Under the pieces are notes generated by a model. The model was not told the DNA's origin. It worked only from the letters and a program-made list of their open reading frames with translations, and did not search any database. From Myxococcales bacterium (GTDB lineage: Bacteria > Myxococcota_A > Polyangia > Polyangiales > Polyangiaceae), in the NCBI GenBank assembly GCA_023248745.1, contig JAHFDZ010000021.1, positions 1-38,735 on the forward strand: DNA of 38,735 bases. The letters are read 5' to 3'. Positions 4,668 through 15,068 of this stretch are shown here, one piece after another. Within the stretch, counting starts at the first letter, position 1, and each line of letters begins with the position of its first letter. The translations under genes were made by a program, and so were the position numbers.

Positions 4668-5435
4668 ATGCGACTTCGTTTGCTCACCGCCCTCATTCCT
4701 CTGGCGCTCGTCGCCTGCAGCTCACCGGTCGCCAGCAATCTCGAAGAGTCCGACGCCAATCGCGTTGTGCTCGCGCTCGATCGCGCAGGCATCGGAGCTT
4801 CGAAAGACAGCGACCCCGTCTCGGAGGGCCGTTTTCGCGTAAGCGTAGCGCGGCAGGACATTGCACTCGCGCTGTCCGCAATGAGAGCCGAAGAGCTTCC
4901 ACGCGAGCGTCCCAAGGGGGTGCTCGACACGGTGGGCAAGGGCGCGCTAATCCCGAGCGCCGCGGCCGAGCACGCGCAAATCGTCGCCGCGACGAGCGCC
5001 GAAATTCAACGCTCGATCGAGTCGGTCGATGGCGTTCTCTCCGCGCGCGTGCACATTCAAATTCCCGTCGCCGACCCGTTCACGACGACGCCACAGAAGG
5101 CCACCGCAAGCGTGCTTGTCGAACACCGTGGGACGACACCGCCGTTGCCTGCAGAAGCGATTGCAAAGCTTGTAACTGGCGCGGTTGCAAATTTGCCCGC
5201 GCAGGAGGTTGCCGTTGTGTTTGTACCACGCAGCATTCCGGTATCGGCCCAGGCAACGCTCTCACCACTCGGACCGTTCTCAGTCGCCCGCGGCTCGGTC
5301 CGACCCATGCAACTCGTCGGTGGGTTGCTCTTTGTGCTTCTCGCAATCTTCGGCGTTGCGTGTGCCGCACTTGCCCTTCGGCTTTCTCGTGTTCAAGCTC
5401 AACTTTCGGCGGCGTTGTCACGAGGTGAAGCGTGA
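4668..5435 (+). CDS. sctJ: SctJ-like lipoprotein (type III secretion inner-membrane ring / YscJ-HrcJ-FliF family)
   Basis: A 255-residue lipoprotein with a short signal peptide ending in the lipobox L14-V-A-C17. The body follows the SctJ pattern: LEESDANRVVLALDRAGI, then a D-x-x-x-ALSAMRAEELPRE segment, IPSAAAEHAQ, EIQRSIESVDGVLSARVHI, ASVLVEHRG and a final domain near 155-190. A single transmembrane helix at about 214-238 and a short cytoplasmic tail complete the canonical SctJ layout. In injectisomes this protein forms a multi-subunit ring in the inner membrane. No other secretion gene (sctC, D, R, S, T, U, V, N) is visible here. Its stop overlaps the start of the MlaF-like ATPase by 4 bp (GTGA), so the two are probably translationally coupled. 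That pairing is unusual and suggests a ring or scaffold used outside a normal injectisome. The family call is firm; the role is open. Confidence 0.85.
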   Translation: MRLRLLTALIPLALVACSSPVASNLEESDANRVVLALDRAGIGASKDSDPVSEGRFRVSVARQDIALALSAMRAEELPRERPKGVLDTVGKGALIPSAAAEHAQIVAATSAEIQRSIESVDGVLSARVHIQIPVADPFTTTPQKATASVLVEHRGTTPPLPAEAIAKLVTGAVANLPAQEVAVVFVPRSIPVSAQATLSPLGPFSVARGSVRPMQLVGGLLFVLLAIFGVACAALALRLSRVQAQLSAALSRGEA

Positions 5436-6184
5436 TCGATATTCGCGACATTTCGAAAACGTTTCACCTCGGAATCGAGGGCACGCGAAACGTGCTATCA
5501 CGTGTTACATTTTCTGTACCAAGGGGATGCCTCTACGGTCTCATCGGTCCAGGCGCATCCGGCAAGAGCGTCCTCCTCAAGTTGATCACGGGCCTCATGA
5601 AGCCCGATCGCGGCTCGATTGTCGTCGACGGAAGCGACATGACGGCTGCAAACGATCTCGAGATCCAAGAGCTGCGCAAGAAGTTTGGCTTCCTCTTTCA
5701 GAACAACGCGCTCTTTGATCACATGACGGTCTTCGACAACGTCGCCTTCCCGTTGCAGCGCCTCTACGCGCCCCCAGAGGAGGAAACTCGCACGCGCGTG
5801 ATTGAACGGCTTCGGTGCGTTTCTCTACCGGGCTTCGAAGACCGCCTTCCCCCAGGGCTCTCTGGAGGCCAGAAAAAGCGCGTCGGCGTTGCACGCGCCA
5901 CCATCACTCAAGCCCCGTACGTCCTCTACGACGAACCTGCTGCAGGCCTCGATCCCGTTACGTCACAGAAGATTTTCGATCTCTTGCGCGCAGAGCAACG
6001 AGCATCAAACGCCACCGTGATCATGGTCTCAAGCGACCTCGATCGATTGCTGACGGTCACCGACCGCGTCGGCATGCTCTATCGCGGCGAGTTGATCTTC
6101 GATGGCAGCACCGAAGAAGCAAAGACCACCTCCGAGCCGCGCGTGAAGCAGTTCGTTCACGGCCTAACCGAGGGCCCGCTTTAA
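5432..6184 (+). CDS. mlaF: MlaF-type ABC ATPase with Ser in place of the H-loop His
   Basis: A 250-residue ATP-binding subunit of the MlaF/Ttg2A (MCE transport) type. Visible motifs are Walker A GPGASGKS (39-46), Q-loop FLFQNNALFDHM from 87, signature LSGGQ (143-147), Walker B VLYDEP (164-169, catalytic Glu168) and D-loop AGLDP. The switch region reads MVSSDLD, so the expected H-loop His is Ser201; the codons gtc-tca-agc-gac confirm it. FQNNALFDHMTVFDNVAFPL is typical of MlaF relatives. The GTG start overlaps the sctJ stop by 4 bp. No permease adjoins it; the nearest MlaE genes are 5.4 kb downstream on the same strand, with another ATPase whose defect is the opposite one. It may therefore be half of a heterodimeric motor. 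Alternatively it is a divergent MlaF paralogue with its own partners. Confidence 0.88.
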   Translation: MIDIRDISKTFHLGIEGTRNVLSRVTFSVPRGCLYGLIGPGASGKSVLLKLITGLMKPDRGSIVVDGSDMTAANDLEIQELRKKFGFLFQNNALFDHMTVFDNVAFPLQRLYAPPEEETRTRVIERLRCVSLPGFEDRLPPGLSGGQKKRVGVARATITQAPYVLYDEPAAGLDPVTSQKIFDLLRAEQRASNATVIMVSSDLDRLLTVTDRVGMLYRGELIFDGSTEEAKTTSEPRVKQFVHGLTEGPL

Positions 6185-8244: not shown

Positions 8245-9630
8245 CTACTTACCATTCGGAGCGAACGTTCGCCTAATCGCTGCAGTCGTCCCAGCATCGC
8301 TATCGTCAGCGCCCGTGCTGAGCCAATAAAGCGCGCTCTTTGTCCCCAATCGCACTTGTGTCGCATTCCGTTGCTGGGCCGCAACCGTGAAGACCTTTGA
8401 GGCCGCGCATGCGCCGCCCGAAGGCGTACACATGCGAACTTCGTCCGCGAGTCCGTTTGCGCTGCGATACGTCCACGCAAGGCCAAATCCGTCTGTGTGG
8501 AGGGACTCGGTGCCGAGCTGGGTAGAGACCACTTGGGTGATCGGGTTGGCGCATCCCGATGGTGGACAACTGTAGATCCCACCTGTCACGGAATCGTTGA
8601 AGTAGAGCACTTCACCTTTGGCCTCGATCGTCGTCGGACGAGCGCGCGAAGGATCGACAAATGAATCTGGAGAACACGGATTTGTGTCTGGATTGCTGCA
8701 CGCCGTTCTTGGGCTTCGGTGCACGCCATTTTCGATCGAAGCGTCGAAGATACCGTCAGCCGTAAACGTAAATCGCGTCGGCACCCATTTGTACTTTGCG
8801 ATTTCGAATCGCGTAGCGCTCGCAGGATTGGAGACCAGCGCGATCGAAAAGAGCTTCGCGCCATCGAAGGTGAAAAGCCCGTCAGAACTTCCGAAGAGAG
8901 CGACACTCGGCATATTGGCCACGTAAATTTCGGGCTCTGTGCAAGTTCCCAAAATAGGACAACGTGCAAGACTCGTCGTCGTCGAACCGCTTTGCTTGCC
9001 AAGGAAGTAAATGTGAGTGACCCCTGCTGCCGGCGCGATCACTAACCCTTGCGGCAATGGCAACGCCTCGAACGTCCCTGAGTAAAGCGCCTCGCGATTT
9101 GTGCACTCCGGCAAATCGCATCGGTAGACGCTCTTCTTGTCGTGGAAGTACATCTTCCCAGTCGAGTGAAGCAGGAACGAGCCGGTCGTATCGCCAAGCG
9201 AAGTAACGGCCTTGGCGACGCACTGTCCCTGATTGCACGTGCCGGGATCGTTTGTACCTGAGCCGCAAGCGCGTTCGCACGAGCCACAGTGGTAGCTGTC
9301 TGATTTGAGATCAAGGCAACGCGAGTTGCCGCTGACTTGACACGCCGAATAGGGACTCGCGCAACCAACGACGCAAGCACCTTGCTCACCACAGGTAAAC
9401 GAAAGTCGGCTGGTGTCGATTGCACCTTGGACGTCGCAATCGATACAATTTGGTTTGCAATAGACTTGCGTCTTACCGCATACGGGCTCGGCTTGAGCGT
9501 CGCTTTCCGTGGTCGCGTCGGAAACAACGCTTGCGTCGAAACCCGCGTCTGGAACGCGACCATCGGATGTGTAGTTCGCGCAACCCACCAATGATGCACA
9601 TGCCACAATGAGCGACGATCGAACGAGCAT
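8245..9630 (-). CDS. Cys-rich lipoprotein, paralogue of the upstream neighbour
   Basis: A 461-residue surface-type lipoprotein. The signal ends in L14-V-G-C17, followed by an Asp/Ala/Ser-rich linker (VPDAGFDASVVSDATTESDA). A Cys-rich module at roughly 50-135 ends in CLDLKSDSYHCGSCERACG and CNQGQC, the pattern common in myxobacterial secreted proteins. About 320 residues follow with repeated short strands (TGKMYFHDKKSVYRC, GVTHIYFLG, GLFTFDGAKLFS, GEVLYFNDSVTGGIYSC). These look like blades of a beta-propeller, each often carrying paired Cys. No enzymatic motif is visible. ATG at 9630 has a strong Shine-Dalgarno (GAGGTG). It follows the paralogous gene by 15 bp, so the two are probably one transcript. 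The binding partner is unknown; cell-surface recognition is a guess. Confidence 0.82.
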   Translation of the reverse strand: MLVRSSLIVACASLVGCANYTSDGRVPDAGFDASVVSDATTESDAQAEPVCGKTQVYCKPNCIDCDVQGAIDTSRLSFTCGEQGACVVGCASPYSACQVSGNSRCLDLKSDSYHCGSCERACGSGTNDPGTCNQGQCVAKAVTSLGDTTGSFLLHSTGKMYFHDKKSVYRCDLPECTNREALYSGTFEALPLPQGLVIAPAAGVTHIYFLGKQSGSTTTSLARCPILGTCTEPEIYVANMPSVALFGSSDGLFTFDGAKLFSIALVSNPASATRFEIAKYKWVPTRFTFTADGIFDASIENGVHRSPRTACSNPDTNPCSPDSFVDPSRARPTTIEAKGEVLYFNDSVTGGIYSCPPSGCANPITQVVSTQLGTESLHTDGFGLAWTYRSANGLADEVRMCTPSGGACAASKVFTVAAQQRNATQVRLGTKSALYWLSTGADDSDAGTTAAIRRTFAPNGK

Positions 9631-9635
9631 TCTCC

Positions 9636-9641
9636 CACCTC
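9636..9641 (-). promoter_or_regulatory. ribosome-binding site GAGGTG
   Basis: On the minus strand GAGGTG lies 5 nt before the ATG at 9630. It sits in the 15-bp gap after the upstream paralogue's stop and supports both the chosen start and co-transcription. Confidence 0.7.
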
Positions 9642-9645
9642 GAAG

Positions 9646-11088
9646 TCAGTACGGAACGTGGGCGCGAAACAGATTGATAGCCTTCGTCGTGTCTACCTGA
9701 ACCCAGTAGATAAACTCGCCCGAGACTCGAACGTTCCCGCTGTGTTCAGCATCGGCGGTGACGTATCCGCCAAGCTGCGCTGCGCTGCATCCGTTGAGCA
9801 AGTCTGTGCAAAAAGAAACGCCTCGATTGGTGAAGTAAACGGCCTTCGCATCAGCCGTAAGACCAGCGATAGTCGGCAAGCCCGAAGCGATCACTTTTAC
9901 ATTCGTCGCACCACAATTGGCTGGCGTCGTTGCGACCGAACACGAAAGAATGCGTGTCGCTCCCGGCGCGGTCGAATTCTCCGCGTAAAAGAGTGTGTCG
10001 TTCACGACATCGTAAGCAATGTTGACGTTTGGCGTGAAGGAAACGACCTTTTCGGCGGTGCCGCACGCACCGGTTCGCGGACAACGGAAGACACCGGCGC
10101 CCATCTGAAAAAAGTAGACGTGCGTCGACGTGAGGATTGGTTGCGCGATCCCCGTCGTTTGAGTCACGAGTGTCGTCACCCCAGCAGACGCGCCCACATC
10201 GATCTGCAAGAGTGCACCTGAAGCATCCGCGAGGTAGAGGCCCGTGCCATCACCTGCAAGGCCAAGCGCTCCTCTTGCCAAGTGCTTCGTTGGAGTAATG
10301 CACACGCTCCCAATGCTGCAGCGTGCAACGAACGAAGTACCTCCTCCATCCACAGTGTCGGTCGCCATGTAGAAAGCGATCGGAGGCGTGGCGGCGGCGA
10401 CGATGTGCTGGGGTGCAGTCGGCGCGGTAAAAATCGTAGATGGGGTAATGGCGTTGGGGTTTGCACACGTTGGAAGCGTGCAACTATGAACTTGATTGTC
10501 CTTGTGAAAGAGAAGGACGTTCGTGCTCGTGATTGCGAGCGCTGACTCCGCTGACGTGAGACTCGCGAGCGAGATAGGAACGCACTTGCCTGCCGCGCAC
10601 TGTCCGGGCAGCGCCGAACCCTTGCCGAGACCACAACGCTGCACGCAAGAACCGCAAGCGTTCGGATCTGAATCAAGCGACGAACAGACGACGCCAGCAT
10701 CCGAATTGCAGGCCGTTGCTGTCGCCTTGCAGGCGGTTGAGCAGCCGGCATCAGCACCGCAAACGGGATTGCGATTGGGAGCATCGACGAGGGTGTTGTC
10801 TACCTTGCAGTCGAGGCACTTGCCACCACAGGAAATGAGCGCGCCAGGGCAGCCGGCCTCGGCATCCTTGCCGGCATCAGCAGCATCAGCGTCGTCCGCT
10901 TTGACATCGACCGCCTGATCGCGAGGCGCGTCGAATGGCGCGTCCGTATTGATCGTCGCGTCCACCGGCGCATCGATCGCCGCATCGGGCACCGAGCTGT
11001 CGCCAGCATCGTTGGGCGCCAACTCGAACGTCGTACACCCGAGCATCGACGTTGCGATCCACACGACCGATAGGCTGTACTTTCGCAT
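9646..11088 (-). CDS. Cys-rich lipoprotein, first of a tandem paralogous pair
   Basis: A 480-residue lipoprotein with the same plan as its downstream neighbour. MRKYSLSVVWIATSMLGC gives a signal with M15-L-G-C18. A long Asp/Ala-rich linker follows (DAAIDAPVDA, DADAADAGKDAEAG), then a Cys-rich module (CGGKCLDCKVD ... CSSLDSDPNACGSCVQRCG ... CAAGKC). A strand-rich domain containing ITSTNVLLFHKDNQVHSC, STHVYFFQMGAGVFRC, NDTLFYAEN and AKAVYFTNRGVSFC completes it. The repeated VYF/LFY strands ending in Cys suggest a disulfide-decorated beta-propeller. GTG at 11109 is in frame, but ATG at 11088 begins a proper signal peptide and is preferred. Similar domain order and adjacency point to tandem duplication followed by strong divergence. 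Function unknown. Confidence 0.82.
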   Translation of the reverse strand: MRKYSLSVVWIATSMLGCTTFELAPNDAGDSSVPDAAIDAPVDATINTDAPFDAPRDQAVDVKADDADAADAGKDAEAGCPGALISCGGKCLDCKVDNTLVDAPNRNPVCGADAGCSTACKATATACNSDAGVVCSSLDSDPNACGSCVQRCGLGKGSALPGQCAAGKCVPISLASLTSAESALAITSTNVLLFHKDNQVHSCTLPTCANPNAITPSTIFTAPTAPQHIVAAATPPIAFYMATDTVDGGGTSFVARCSIGSVCITPTKHLARGALGLAGDGTGLYLADASGALLQIDVGASAGVTTLVTQTTGIAQPILTSTHVYFFQMGAGVFRCPRTGACGTAEKVVSFTPNVNIAYDVVNDTLFYAENSTAPGATRILSCSVATTPANCGATNVKVIASGLPTIAGLTADAKAVYFTNRGVSFCTDLLNGCSAAQLGGYVTADAEHSGNVRVSGEFIYWVQVDTTKAINLFRAHVPY

Positions 11089-11144
11089 CTGTTCAAAAGA
11101 ACTTATCACTCAGAACGAGCTTTCGTCCTCTTTCCCGGTGTCCC

Positions 11145-11608: not shown

Positions 11609-12424
11609 ATGTCCGCAGCGCAGCCGCTGGAAGCACCTAAGAATTCCGGTCTTACCAACCTGCTCGAATCGATTGGTGGCTCTGCCCTCGCGATCTTCGA
11701 GGTTGTCGGCGGCATGACCGTGCTCTTCGCGCGCATTCTCAGTCGGCTCGTCAGGTTCCAGTTTGACTTGCCAGAATTCAAACGTTCCCTCTACAAAATG
11801 GCCGTCAAGTCGCTGCCCATTGTGTTCGTCGTCGCGCTGTTCACTGGCGCTATCGTCGTCATTCAAGCCGCGCCATTGGTCAAGCGCATTTCGGGCGCCG
11901 AATCGCTGCTCGGCTGGGGCGCGGGGTTCGGCGTCTTGCGCGAGATCGGACCCTTGTTAACCGCCTTGACGATCTCGGGACGCGTTGGCGCGAACAATAC
12001 CGCCGAGCTTGGAACGATGGTGGTCACCGAGCAGATCGACGCGCTGCGAGCGCTCGCGATTGATCCGATTTCGTTTCTCATCGTGCCCCGATTTTTGGGC
12101 ATCATCATCACGCTCTTCGCGATGGTGCTCTACGCAGACGCACTCGCACTCGTTGGCGCTGCCTACACCGGCCAAGGTTTTTTGGGCGTCACACCGCGCA
12201 CCTTCTATGACGGGCTGACGACGCTGCTTCACTTCAGCGACGTCGCAAACGGTCTCATCAAGAGCATTGTATTCGGACTCATGATCGCGCTCTCGAGTTG
12301 CCACTTTGGACTTGCAACCAAAGGCGGAGCGCCAGGTGTTGGACGCGCCGTCAATGCGATGGTTGTCGCAGCTGCAGCAGGCATCTTCATCGTCGACTTT
12401 CTCGTCAGCTTTGTGATGGGCTGA
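11609..12424 (+). CDS. mlaE: MlaE-family permease, copy with intact ExGP motif
   Basis: A 271-residue permease of the MlaE/Ttg2B (MCE ABC) family, normal in length. An N-terminal amphipathic/interfacial helix is followed by about five membrane segments. The family core is clear: LREIGPLLTAL (110-120), GRVGANNTAELGTMVVTEQ and IDALRALAIDP. EIGP and the E-x-G-T-M segments form the cytoplasmic coupling region that contacts the ATPase in this family. ATG at 11609 is preferred over an in-frame upstream start at 11552, which would add a charged leader not seen in the family. The stop is followed after 2 bp by the next permease start, so the two permeases are tightly coupled. In known systems MlaE is a homodimer; here a second, divergent permease is available as partner. 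Confidence 0.92.
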   Translation: MSAAQPLEAPKNSGLTNLLESIGGSALAIFEVVGGMTVLFARILSRLVRFQFDLPEFKRSLYKMAVKSLPIVFVVALFTGAIVVIQAAPLVKRISGAESLLGWGAGFGVLREIGPLLTALTISGRVGANNTAELGTMVVTEQIDALRALAIDPISFLIVPRFLGIIITLFAMVLYADALALVGAAYTGQGFLGVTPRTFYDGLTTLLHFSDVANGLIKSIVFGLMIALSSCHFGLATKGGAPGVGRAVNAMVVAAAAGIFIVDFLVSFVMG

Positions 12425-12426
12425 AA

Positions 12427-13254
12427 ATGAGCGACCAAGCCGAAAACCCTCGCATCGCTGACCAGGGCATCATCCATGCCGAAGTCTACGACCTGGGGGC
12501 TCAAGCGCTTTCGCTGATCGACGCTGGGCGTGGTCTCTACTCGCTCTTTGTCAGGACGCTTTACTACACGTTTCGGGGGCGGCGTGAAAAGGGCGCTGTC
12601 GCCAAAGAGATGTTTGAGATCGGCAACCGATCACTTTTCTTTCTATGCGTCACGATGGGCTGCATCGGGATGATCATGGTCTATCAATCCGGCCTGCAAA
12701 CGCAGCGCATCGTCCCCGACTTTTCGCTTCTGGGCCCTACGTATTTGGAACTCCTTGTGCGCGATTTCGCGGCTTCGATCGGAGCCCTCATGCTCTCGAC
12801 GCGTGTCGGAGCAGGTATCGCAGCAGAAATTGGCTCTATGGTCGTTACCGAGCAGGTTGACGCCTTGCGCATGAGCGCGGCAGACCCTGTCGACTACCTT
12901 ATCGTTCCGAAGTTCTTGGCGAGCCTTCTGATGACCACGGTGCTCATCGTCATCGCGGGCACAATTGCGTTCATCACCGGATTTGCAACCGCCAGTGTCT
13001 TCTTCGACGTGTCAGCTGACGCCTACTTCAGCATGAAGCTCATCGACGCCGGCGACGTCATTACAGGCGCCACCAAGTGTGTTGCGTATGGCGCCGCCAT
13101 ACCTATCGTGAGCGGCTATTGCGGCCTCTCTACGCACGGTGGCTCCGAAGGCGTGGGTTGGGCCACGACGCGCGCAGTCGTCAATTGCTCGCTCGCAATT
13201 ATCATTTTGAACTTCTTTATCTCGGGCGCGGCATTGATCATCTTCCAGCCTTAA
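12427..13254 (+). CDS. second MlaE-family permease, divergent (ExGP replaced by DFAA)
   Basis: A 275-residue MlaE-type permease. The conserved tail of the family motif is present (STRVGAGIAAEIGSMVVTEQ, VDALRMSAADPVDY), but the preceding ExGP reads D113-F-A-A116. The N-terminus is longer and more charged than in the first copy (IHAEVYDLGAQALSLIDAGRGLYSLF). The C-terminal half (GAAIPIVSGYCGLSTHGGSEGVGWATTRAVVNC) is typical of the family. ATG at 12427 lies 2 bp after the first permease stop; the frame is open upstream to 12298, but that part is the first permease read in another frame. It has diverged far from the first copy, so this is an old paralogue, not a recent duplication. It probably pairs with the first permease to form an asymmetric pore. 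Confidence 0.9.
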   Translation: MSDQAENPRIADQGIIHAEVYDLGAQALSLIDAGRGLYSLFVRTLYYTFRGRREKGAVAKEMFEIGNRSLFFLCVTMGCIGMIMVYQSGLQTQRIVPDFSLLGPTYLELLVRDFAASIGALMLSTRVGAGIAAEIGSMVVTEQVDALRMSAADPVDYLIVPKFLASLLMTTVLIVIAGTIAFITGFATASVFFDVSADAYFSMKLIDAGDVITGATKCVAYGAAIPIVSGYCGLSTHGGSEGVGWATTRAVVNCSLAIIILNFFISGAALIIFQP

Positions 13255-13264
13255 GTCACCGCCA

Positions 13265-14008
13265 ATGATCTCTTTTCGAAACATCAAGAAAGCTTTCGGA
13301 TCGAAGCCGGTGCTCCACGACGTGTCGTTCGACGTCAACAAGGGCGAGGTGTTCTTCATCATTGGCGCATCGGGCGTTGGCAAAAGCGTGCTCATCAAGC
13401 ACTTGATTGGCCTGCTCTATCCCGACGGCGGCGAGATCTGGCTCGATGGCGAAGAGATCTCTCGCAAAGACGAAAAGGGCATGTTCCCCGTGCGCATGAA
13501 GTGCGCGATGGTCTTTCAACATTCCACGCTCTTCGACTCGATGACGTGCGTCGAAAATGTCGCGCTACCTTTGCGAAAGCACAAAGGGATGTCGCTCAAG
13601 GACTCGGTCGCCGAGGCGCGCCGCCGGCTCGAGATCGTTCACATGGCCGAATTCGCCGAACGCTACCCGCCCGAACTAGGCGACGGCATGCGCAAGCGCG
13701 TCGCCATCGCACGCGCGCTCACCTTGGATCCGCAATACGTGCTCTTTGACGAGCCAACGACCTCGCTGGACCCCGTGAGCGCTCGACGGGTAGACGCACT
13801 GATTCGCGAATTGTCAGACAAATTGGGTGTGACATCGATCGTGGTGAGCCACGATCTCACAAGCATCTTCACAATCGCCGATAGAATTGTGATGCTGTAC
13901 AAAGGTAACGTCCGTTTGCTTGGCACACGGGCGGAGTTTAAGAATTCGACCGATGGGGTCGTTGCACAATTCATCAATGGCCGCGCTGAAGGCCCGATGG
14001 ATGCGTAA
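13265..14008 (+). CDS. mlaF: MlaF-type ABC ATPase with degenerate signature motif (LGDGM)
   Basis: A 247-residue MlaF/Ttg2A-type ATPase in the main lipid-transport operon. Walker A GASGVGKS (34-41), Q-loop VFQHSTLFDSM from 83, Walker B VLFDEP (catalytic Glu163), D-loop SLDP and H-loop VVSHD (His196) are intact. The signature, normally LSGGM/Q, reads L138-G-D-G-M142; the codons cta-ggc-gac-ggc-atg confirm it. Loss of the signature Ser usually weakens the composite ATP site formed with the partner's Walker motifs. The other MlaF in this window has an intact signature but a defective H-loop, which is complementary. The gene starts 10 bp after the second permease and precedes mlaD by 37 bp. The C-terminal VAQFINGRAEGPM is typical of MlaF proteins. 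Confidence 0.92.
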   Translation: MISFRNIKKAFGSKPVLHDVSFDVNKGEVFFIIGASGVGKSVLIKHLIGLLYPDGGEIWLDGEEISRKDEKGMFPVRMKCAMVFQHSTLFDSMTCVENVALPLRKHKGMSLKDSVAEARRRLEIVHMAEFAERYPPELGDGMRKRVAIARALTLDPQYVLFDEPTTSLDPVSARRVDALIRELSDKLGVTSIVVSHDLTSIFTIADRIVMLYKGNVRLLGTRAEFKNSTDGVVAQFINGRAEGPMDA

Positions 14009-14045: not shown

Positions 14046-15068
14046 ATGGCGCAAGAGCGTTCACTTGAAGTCAAAGTCGGTGCACTTATCCTGGTGTCAG
14101 TGTTTATCCTTGGTGGCTTCATCTTGATGATGGGCGGACTGAGCCTCGAGAAGACGTATCCCATATATGTCTACTTCGATAATCCTGGCGGCCTTCAATC
14201 GGGCGCCGCCGTCAAGATGGCAGGCCTCAAGATCGGATCCGTCAAAGAACTGGGATTCAATACGTCCCACGTCAATCCGAAGACGGGTAAGAGCTCGCTT
14301 GTAAAGGCGCGCGCGAACATCGAAGTGAAGTATCGCGACATCATTCGGAAAGACGCCGACTTTTACGTCACATCGCAAGGCGTCCTTGGCGAGCAATTTC
14401 TCGCGATCGATCCGGGTACGGGCGCGACGCCACCCCTCGGCGAGAACGCAGAAGTCGACGGCATCGGACCTCCTCGACTCGATCTGTTTCTCGCGAAGTC
14501 GTACGAACTTCTCGACACCACCCTCGCCGGCCTTCGCAACAATCGTGAGCTGCTCGGCGACATCTTGACCAACACGGCAGGCTTGCTCAAGGGCCTCAAC
14601 GGAACGGTCACCGAGAATCGCGATCGCATCAACCGCATCGTCCAAAACTTTGAGTCGCTCAGCCAAGAAGCGCTCACGCTCACACAAAACACCCGCCGCA
14701 ACTACGTCGACAATCCCAAGATGCTTCGCACCATCGATAACGTGGAGCACCTTTCGAGCGAAGTCCGACGAGACGCGACTCCGATGTTGAAAGACGCGAA
14801 AGAAGCCATCGCCAATCTCAACCGAATTTCAGCGACGGTGGGCGATCCGAAAGAGATCGATAAGCTCCGCAAGACGCTCGAAGAAGTCGCGCAACTTGCC
14901 TCGAGGGCGAACTCAATTGCGGGCGATACGCAATCGATTGTGAGTCACATCAAGAAGGGCAAAGGCACCGTTGGCGCCCTCGTAATGGACGAAGAGATGT
15001 ACGACGACATGCAAGAGATGGTGCGTGACCTCAAGCACAATCCTTGGAAGTTTCTCTGGAAAGAGTGA
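14046..15068 (+). CDS. mlaD: MlaD-like MCE-domain protein
   Basis: A 340-residue MCE (mammalian cell entry) protein that would hold the periplasmic lipid-binding ring of an Mla-type transporter. One N-terminal transmembrane helix (about 11-33, VGALILVSVFILGGFILMM) is followed by the MCE domain from about 38 (YPIYVYFDNPGGLQSGAAVK, AGLKIGSVKELGF, VTSQGVLGEQFLAIDPGTG). A long C-terminal region, about 150-330, is predicted helical and rich in Asn, Arg and Glu (RDRINRIVQNFESLSQEAL, RRDATPMLKDAKEAIANL). This resembles MCE proteins whose helices bundle into a needle or tunnel, rather than the short E. coli MlaD (about 180 residues). That fits a longer periplasmic conduit. It is the last gene of the operon; no mlaC or mlaB is visible in the window. 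Confidence 0.93.
   Translation: MAQERSLEVKVGALILVSVFILGGFILMMGGLSLEKTYPIYVYFDNPGGLQSGAAVKMAGLKIGSVKELGFNTSHVNPKTGKSSLVKARANIEVKYRDIIRKDADFYVTSQGVLGEQFLAIDPGTGATPPLGENAEVDGIGPPRLDLFLAKSYELLDTTLAGLRNNRELLGDILTNTAGLLKGLNGTVTENRDRINRIVQNFESLSQEALTLTQNTRRNYVDNPKMLRTIDNVEHLSSEVRRDATPMLKDAKEAIANLNRISATVGDPKEIDKLRKTLEEVAQLASRANSIAGDTQSIVSHIKKGKGTVGALVMDEEMYDDMQEMVRDLKHNPWKFLWKE

Follow-up and report, generated by a model that had tools for sequence, protein, structure and literature searches.

A tandem pair of unlike MlaE permeases, encoded with two complementarily degenerate ATPases, as a probable asymmetric MCE-family transporter

In Mla systems, one permease and one ATPase each act as a homodimer. 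The locus described here encodes two divergent MlaE permeases side by side, raising the question of whether they serve two transporters or form the unlike halves of one. The window, meaning the whole stretch of DNA analysed (38,735 nucleotides from a Myxococcales bacterium, contig JAHFDZ010000021.1 of assembly GCA_023248745.1), carries the following features of interest.

4668-5435, plus strand: J, SctJ/YscJ-like lipoprotein (Pfam YscJ_FliF, E 1e-23)
5432-6184, plus strand: A1, MlaF-like ATPase (best NCBIfam match MlaF, below cut-off)
5546-5569, plus strand: A1 Walker A, intact
5858-5872, plus strand: A1 signature LSGGQ, intact
within 5930-5944, plus strand: A1 Walker B Glu, present in the window copy
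within 6029-6040, plus strand: A1 Ser at the H-loop His position
11609-12424, plus strand: P1, first MlaE permease, 271 aa (Pfam MlaE, 214.7 bits, E 1.4e-63)
11939-11953, plus strand: P1 REIGP
12029-12049, plus strand: P1 coupling-helix motif EQIDALR
12427-13254, plus strand: P2, second MlaE permease, 275 aa (Pfam MlaE, 169.8 bits, E 8.3e-50)
12760-12774, plus strand: P2 RDFAA
12850-12870, plus strand: P2 coupling-helix motif EQVDALR
codon within 13207-13218, plus strand: P2 Asn at the position of E. coli D250
13265-14008, plus strand: A2, MlaF-like ATPase (Pfam ABC_tran; best NCBIfam match MlaF, below cut-off)
13364-13387, plus strand: A2 Walker A, intact
13676-13690, plus strand: A2 signature LGDGM, degenerate
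within 13748-13762, plus strand: A2 Walker B Glu, intact
within 13847-13858, plus strand: A2 H-loop His, intact
14046-15068, plus strand: D, MCE (MlaD-type) protein (Pfam MlaD, E 1.2e-17)

As the original prediction had it, P1 and P2 are consecutive genes on the same strand, with 2 bp between the stop of the first and the start of the second, and both carry the MlaE core RVGAxxxAExGxMVVTEQ[IV]DALR. Both match Pfam MlaE (PF02405) over nearly the whole domain, exceeding its cut-off of 22.5 bits, and share 32% identity over 247 columns. Neither reaches the cut-offs of TIGR00056 (212.2; P1 179.9, P2 152.9) or NF033619, perm_MlaE_1 (315; P1 143.8, P2 118.1). An AlphaFold model of P2 (mean pLDDT 91.7) shows the MlaE layout of an interfacial helix, five transmembrane (TM) helices and a coupling helix between TM2 and TM3, and Foldseek matched it to 16 MlaE/YrbE chains in PDB (TM-score 0.69-0.85 by query). 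The source genome holds two more MlaE genes elsewhere.

Directly downstream of P1-P2 come A2 and then D, an MCE/MlaD-domain protein encoded, as in MCE systems, with permease and ATPase genes. D is predicted to consist of a TM helix, one MCE domain and a long helical C-terminal part, with no beta-barrel, in a low-confidence model (mean pLDDT 65.3) that was used for the order of parts only. After the helical part, the C-terminal tail is very conserved, reading G-x-G-T-x-G and then R-D-L-K-x-N-P-W-K-x-x-W in most of 14 rows. A1 lies about 5.4 kb upstream of P1 in the window, with several other genes between, a spacing that counts against a shared transcript there. Two of the intervening genes, long and on the minus strand (8245-11109), encode secreted-looking, cysteine-containing products alike in build. 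A gap of similar size separates A1 from P1 in a locus of the same genus (L035); in many other relatives A1 adjoins P1, immediately upstream. The 3' end of the J gene overlaps the start of A1 by 4 bp. J is present in 21 of 141 loci, 20 of which also have A1, and it lies directly 5' of A1 in 16 of these 20; it is a possible accessory of the transporter and may be a re-used secretion-ring lipoprotein. A second YscJ match in the source genome, on contig C284, is stronger than J.

A survey of 377 genomes of the phylum, at a match threshold of E up to 1e-45, found P1 in 154 and P2 in 153, with both present in 148 and either in 159. The same order of the pair in relatives, which had been put forward as a check, was found in nearly all stretches that hold both genes. 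Of 141 stretches around P2 (140 fetched, plus the window), 124 hold P1; it is on the strand of P2 in every one and upstream within 300 bp in 122. The full order A1-P1-P2-A2-D occurs in 61 of the 141 stretches, many others ending at contig ends. Elsewhere the operon has come apart. Family f26 carries the parts at three separate sites, with P2 alone in 10 stretches, A2-D in 15 and P1 in 14. A1 is beside P1 in 11 of these 14; in G071 it lies about 7 kb away on the opposite strand, in G099 a contig end cuts it off, and in G075 no A1 was found within 8.8 kb of P1 in the fetched stretch. In family f17, A1-P1 (two genomes) is apart from P2-A2-D (three genomes), and in G036 and G020, P1-P2 is apart from A1-A2-D. 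Retention of parts after operon break-up is what an obligate complex predicts. Taken with the near-complete co-occurrence and the kept P1-then-P2 order, it gives the predicted obligate P1/P2 heterodimer good, if indirect, support.

The 11 of the 159 genomes in which only P1 or P2 passed the threshold were re-examined with profiles. Both genes proved to be present in G001 (where P1 is a fragment at a contig end), G129, G236 and G305, and probably in G289, where two permeases adjoin and a contig end truncates one of them. In G161 and G288 the match to P1 comes only from an apparent single MlaE. Each of these two genomes also holds an adjacent permease pair weakly similar to both the P1 and P2 profiles (G161:C115:77282-78747 and G288:C30:12806-14244), perhaps a third lineage of paired permeases. 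The clear singletons after re-examination are G225, G151 and G388. Loss of P2 with P1 kept, which would speak against an obligate pair, thus has one clear candidate in G225 (about 1000 contigs, 90% complete) and was otherwise not seen, save that in G384 P1 is cut by a contig end, so that loss of P2 cannot be judged. P2 occurs without P1 in G388 (95% complete) and G151 (84% complete), and in G388 it is accompanied by A2 and D.

G388 is what would be expected if P1 with A1 and P2 with A2 were two separate homodimeric MCE transporters sharing an operon and an MCE protein. The f17 split falls exactly along that line, each permease retains its own coupling helix, and homodimers are the rule in Mla. 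Nevertheless, P1 and P2 co-occur in 148 of the 159 genomes with either, and usually only one MCE gene adjoins the permease pair, with two in a few loci. The ATPases also bear on this alternative.

In an ABC dimer, as is generally known and as PMC9541285 describes, each ATP site is formed by the Walker A, Walker B and H-loop of one subunit and the signature of the other. We counted these motifs in sequences from 148 locus sets (G359 enters with two loci), which were classed as A1 or A2 by the higher phmmer score, an assignment not blind to sequence class; where an A1 or A2 is missing from the set, it mostly lies outside the fetched stretch. In 120 of 121 A1 sequences the Walker-B Glu is replaced by Asp and/or the H-loop His by Ser, Thr or Gln. 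The Walker-B/H-loop pairs are D,H (65), E,S (50), D,S (3), E,T (1) and D,Q (1), and the single intact E,H is that of G287. The A1 signature is SGG in 120 of 121 and AGG in the other. A2 shows the reverse: the Walker-B Glu and H-loop His are intact in 126/126, and the signature is never SGG (0/126, two incomplete A2 excluded) but GDG (98), SDG (9), GPS (8), GPG (4), GPP (2) or one of five single forms. Such a distribution, with a catalytic lesion in one ATPase and a signature lesion in the other, characterizes heterodimeric ABC proteins with one degenerate site. As a control, 41 of 44 ABC ATPases from examined loci that lack the dual system show the canonical form at each of the three points, the exceptions being an exporter pair in L262 (two of the three) and one ATPase in L265.

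The lesions in A1 and A2 are complementary, and therefore only an A1:A2 dimer yields one complete site, either homodimer having two damaged ones. An A2:A2 dimer would have two degenerate signatures and an A1:A1 dimer two catalytic lesions, which speaks against separate homodimeric transporters, and we regard that arrangement as unlikely.

Several limits apply to these counts. When the two lesion columns are left out in building an A1 tree, the Walker-B state needs five changes on it and the H-loop state three; a few ancestral lesions therefore explain most of the counts, which are not independent. In the many A1 sequences with Glu to Asp alone, some activity may be left. Four A2-like ATPases (L221-L224, all LSGGM) were excluded from the A2 counts. 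G062 (L223) and G079 (L224) each carry a degenerate A2 in addition, G045 (L222) is without P1 and P2 at threshold, and G384 (L221), with a P1 fragment only, has this canonical protein as its best A2-like ATPase in a system cut by a contig end. Weak A2-like second copies in G120, G296 and G075 were also left out. The argument, as read from sequences, rests instead on the complementarity itself, on at least two kinds of A1 lesion (Asp with His; Glu with Ser), on several A2 signature forms and on recurrence in a second phylum.

It could also be that the permeases form a heterodimer, as in Mce1, while an A2 homodimer alone drives transport and A1 is regulatory or decaying. The catalytic residues of A2 are retained throughout, A1 is more divergent than A2, Mce1 itself runs on an ATPase homodimer, and in f26 the three exceptions to A1 beside P1 may point the same way. 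The best-kept part of A1 is, however, its signature (SGG or AGG in 121/121), the very element needed for the site of its partner, and A2 never has SGG. We consider an A2-only motor improbable.

The second phylum is Bdellovibrionota. When 57 further loci (L248-L304) were scanned for adjacent permease pairs, two adjacent permeases were found in five, all Bdellovibrionota (L254, L258, L276, L280 and L300). Here two ATPases lie upstream of the two permeases, together with an MCE gene, an arrangement checked by Pfam in L254 and L300. The first ATPase, a mere contig-end fragment in L258, has Asn at the H-loop in 4/4 readable sequences and Asp at Walker B in 3/4, and the second has SYG in place of SGG in 5/5. 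The predicted link between the permease pair and an ATPase asymmetry is thus supported by complementary lesions in both phyla. Retention of the Mla machinery in Bdellovibrio is reported in a Bdellovibrio paper, and duplications and transfers of MlaDE within Gracilicutes are mentioned in PMC10665443.

In a permease tree of 71 chosen rows (21 P1, 21 P2, 10 Bdellovibrionota and 19 single MlaE), P1 and P2 form separate clades, each with its own Bdellovibrionota counterpart. P1 groups with the first Bdellovibrionota permease (perm1; bootstrap/SH-aLRT 100/95) and P2 with the second (perm2; 99/94), and single MlaE are separated from the paired permeases (98/93). This tree omits E. coli MlaE and YrbE1A, both long branches; a tree including them placed YrbE1A beside P1, a placing that we distrust. 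A1 and the Bdellovibrionota A1 fall together (SH-aLRT 90 on the branch parting both from the rest), and A2 and the Bdellovibrionota A2 form no single clade. The permease split would thus be old, or the whole set may have been exchanged; the lesion in A2 may have more than one origin, with the Bdellovibrionota A2 as a parallel case.

The alignment confirmed EIGP in P1 opposite DFAA in P2. That only one permease has ExGP, as originally predicted, is true of the window and fails for the P2 family, where position 98 carries Glu in 61 and Asp in 55 of 141 sequences, and position 101 carries Pro in 99 and Ala in 41. DFAA, present in only part of the P2 clade, was accordingly rejected as a hallmark of the second permease. 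The description of the site as a cytoplasmic coupling position was mistaken, since it aligns to R97-E98-L99-G100-P101 of E. coli MlaE, inside TM2. The MlaE coupling helix joins TM2 to TM3 and meets the ATPase, and Arg97, Glu98, Lys205 and Asp250 form a buried charge cluster in which Arg97 touches a lipid phosphate, according to the E. coli structure paper (PMC7790496). In the P2 model, TM2 spans residues 102-140, RDFAA lies at residues 112-116, 10 residues into the helix, and the coupling helix spans 143-149; its motif EQ[IV]DALR is retained in both permeases. REIGP and RDFAA lie within TM2, away from the coupling helix, and the difference therefore sits in the lipid cavity. A direct ATPase contact at EIGP/DFAA was rejected on the basis of the E. 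coli alignment, the structure in PMC7790496 and the P2 model.

E98D, P101A and D250N occur together in 35 of 141 P2 sequences, and E98D with P101A but without D250N in 6; K205 is retained in all 141. That the three mostly change together suggests, at the level of sequence, that the buried charge cluster has been remodelled. Asn250 is found outside P2 as well, in 15 of 124 P1 and 3 of 20 single MlaE. The TM2 proline (P101) is kept in 124/124 P1, in all 20 single MlaE examined and in 5/5 Bdellovibrionota perm1, and is missing from 5/5 perm2; by this comparison it appears more telling than Asn250 for setting P2 apart.

A simple tandem mlaE duplication, after which P2 drifted and DFAA arose by neutral decay, would sit well with the restriction of DFAA to part of the P2 clade, with the Asn at 250 in some P1 and single MlaE, and with the report that R97A and E98A leave an E. 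coli MlaE growth assay unaffected (PMC7790496). Drift is nevertheless hard to reconcile with a deep P2 clade that is joined by Bdellovibrionota perm2 and separate from P1, with retention of P2 in 153 of 377 genomes, and with a TM2 proline whose absence recurs in perm2 while its presence is constant in P1, perm1 and single MlaE. We hold this explanation to be very improbable.

Which ATPase lies under which permease was approached by covariation (mean-field coupling, reduced alphabet; 94 complete sets, effective number about 51), which gave a clade signal only. The top pairs are hub columns marking clades, and the counts in the top 200 are near expectation (P1-A1 45 observed versus about 35 expected; P2-A1 34 versus about 38; P1-A2 27 versus about 29; P2-A2 25 versus about 31). 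Linkage hints at A1 under P1 and A2 under P2, a pairing that we slightly favour, with low confidence.

Considering all of this, P1 and P2 are best explained as two dissimilar halves of a single lipid ABC transporter of the MCE family (MlaE fold), built from A1, P1, P2, A2 and D, a reading to which we assign a probability of about 0.78; confidence in it is reduced by G388, G075 and G384. In such a transporter, a P1:P2 heterodimer would be the transmembrane core and form the lipid path, an A1:A2 heterodimer would be the motor, and D would form an MCE ring in the periplasm, extended by its helical part, above the path. The Walker A, Walker B and H-loop of A2 with the signature of A1 would make a canonical site that should hydrolyse ATP. 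The same elements of A1 with the signature of A2 would make a degenerate site, one at which ATP is probably bound but not efficiently hydrolysed, as in PatAB. The path between P1 and P2 would be asymmetric, the window P2 having an altered buried charge cluster and TM2 proline; a lipid substrate is presumed from the family. It seems likely that the ABC core is fully asymmetric, with a degenerate ATP site kept through several substitution changes in two phyla, one half being a scaffold held by ATP while the other is the motor, and with the halves of the lipid cavity differing in their tasks.

If this is true, nature would provide an MCE transporter with a canonical ATP site opposite a degenerate one, in which single-site ATP use could be studied without engineering and in which four distinct subunits could be labelled and mutated singly. 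Among the matches listed in our literature search (titles and abstract openings, with most subscription papers and all bioRxiv preprints outside its scope), none was an MCE system with two unlike ATPases, a weak absence that hints at an asymmetric class not described in the literature searched.

Among known systems, MlaFEDB (PDB 6xbd, 7cge) resembles the present one in its MlaE fold, coupling helix, MlaF-like ATPases and MlaD-type MCE protein. In contrast to proteobacterial Mla, P1 and P2 do not reach the NCBIfam cut-offs for MlaE, nor A1 and A2 those for MlaF. Which way Mla moves lipids is itself disputed, being posed as a question in the title of a review (PMC10212509). The minimal MlaEFD of the Veillonella type, modelled with two MlaE, two MlaF and six MlaD (PMC10665443), has like D a long MCE protein with a helical stretch adjoining MlaE and MlaF; the beta-barrel missing from the low-confidence D model sets D against the long Veillonella MlaD. 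Another relative is mycobacterial Mce1 (YrbE1A/YrbE1B, MceG, Mce1A-F; PDB 8fed), in which a YrbE1A/YrbE1B heterodimer sits on a MceG homodimer (PMC9882608). Two unlike, adjacent permease genes encode its MlaE-fold heterodimer, as is proposed for P1-P2, and chains I and J of 8fed are among the structural matches of the P2 model. Mce1, however, has a single homodimeric ATPase and six MCE proteins, whereas the P1-P2 system has two ATPases whose lesions are complementary and, usually, a single adjoining MCE gene. Heterodimeric ABC proteins with one degenerate site include TAP, TmrAB and CFTR. Heterodimeric exporters are of the multidrug-exporter type, in which the membrane part and the ATPase domains are fused; A1 and A2, in contrast, are separate ATPases accompanying the MlaE-type core of an MCE system. 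The lesion logic is nonetheless shared with PatAB, in which PatA has a Walker-B Asp and an H-loop Gln and PatB a changed signature (PMC9541285), a catalytic lesion on one side and a signature lesion on the other. The ATPases reported for Mla and for Mce1 are two equal subunits; an MCE transporter with unequal sites would, if real, differ from both and extend the degenerate-site design, discussed for heterodimeric exporters in PMC9541285, to a different transporter fold.
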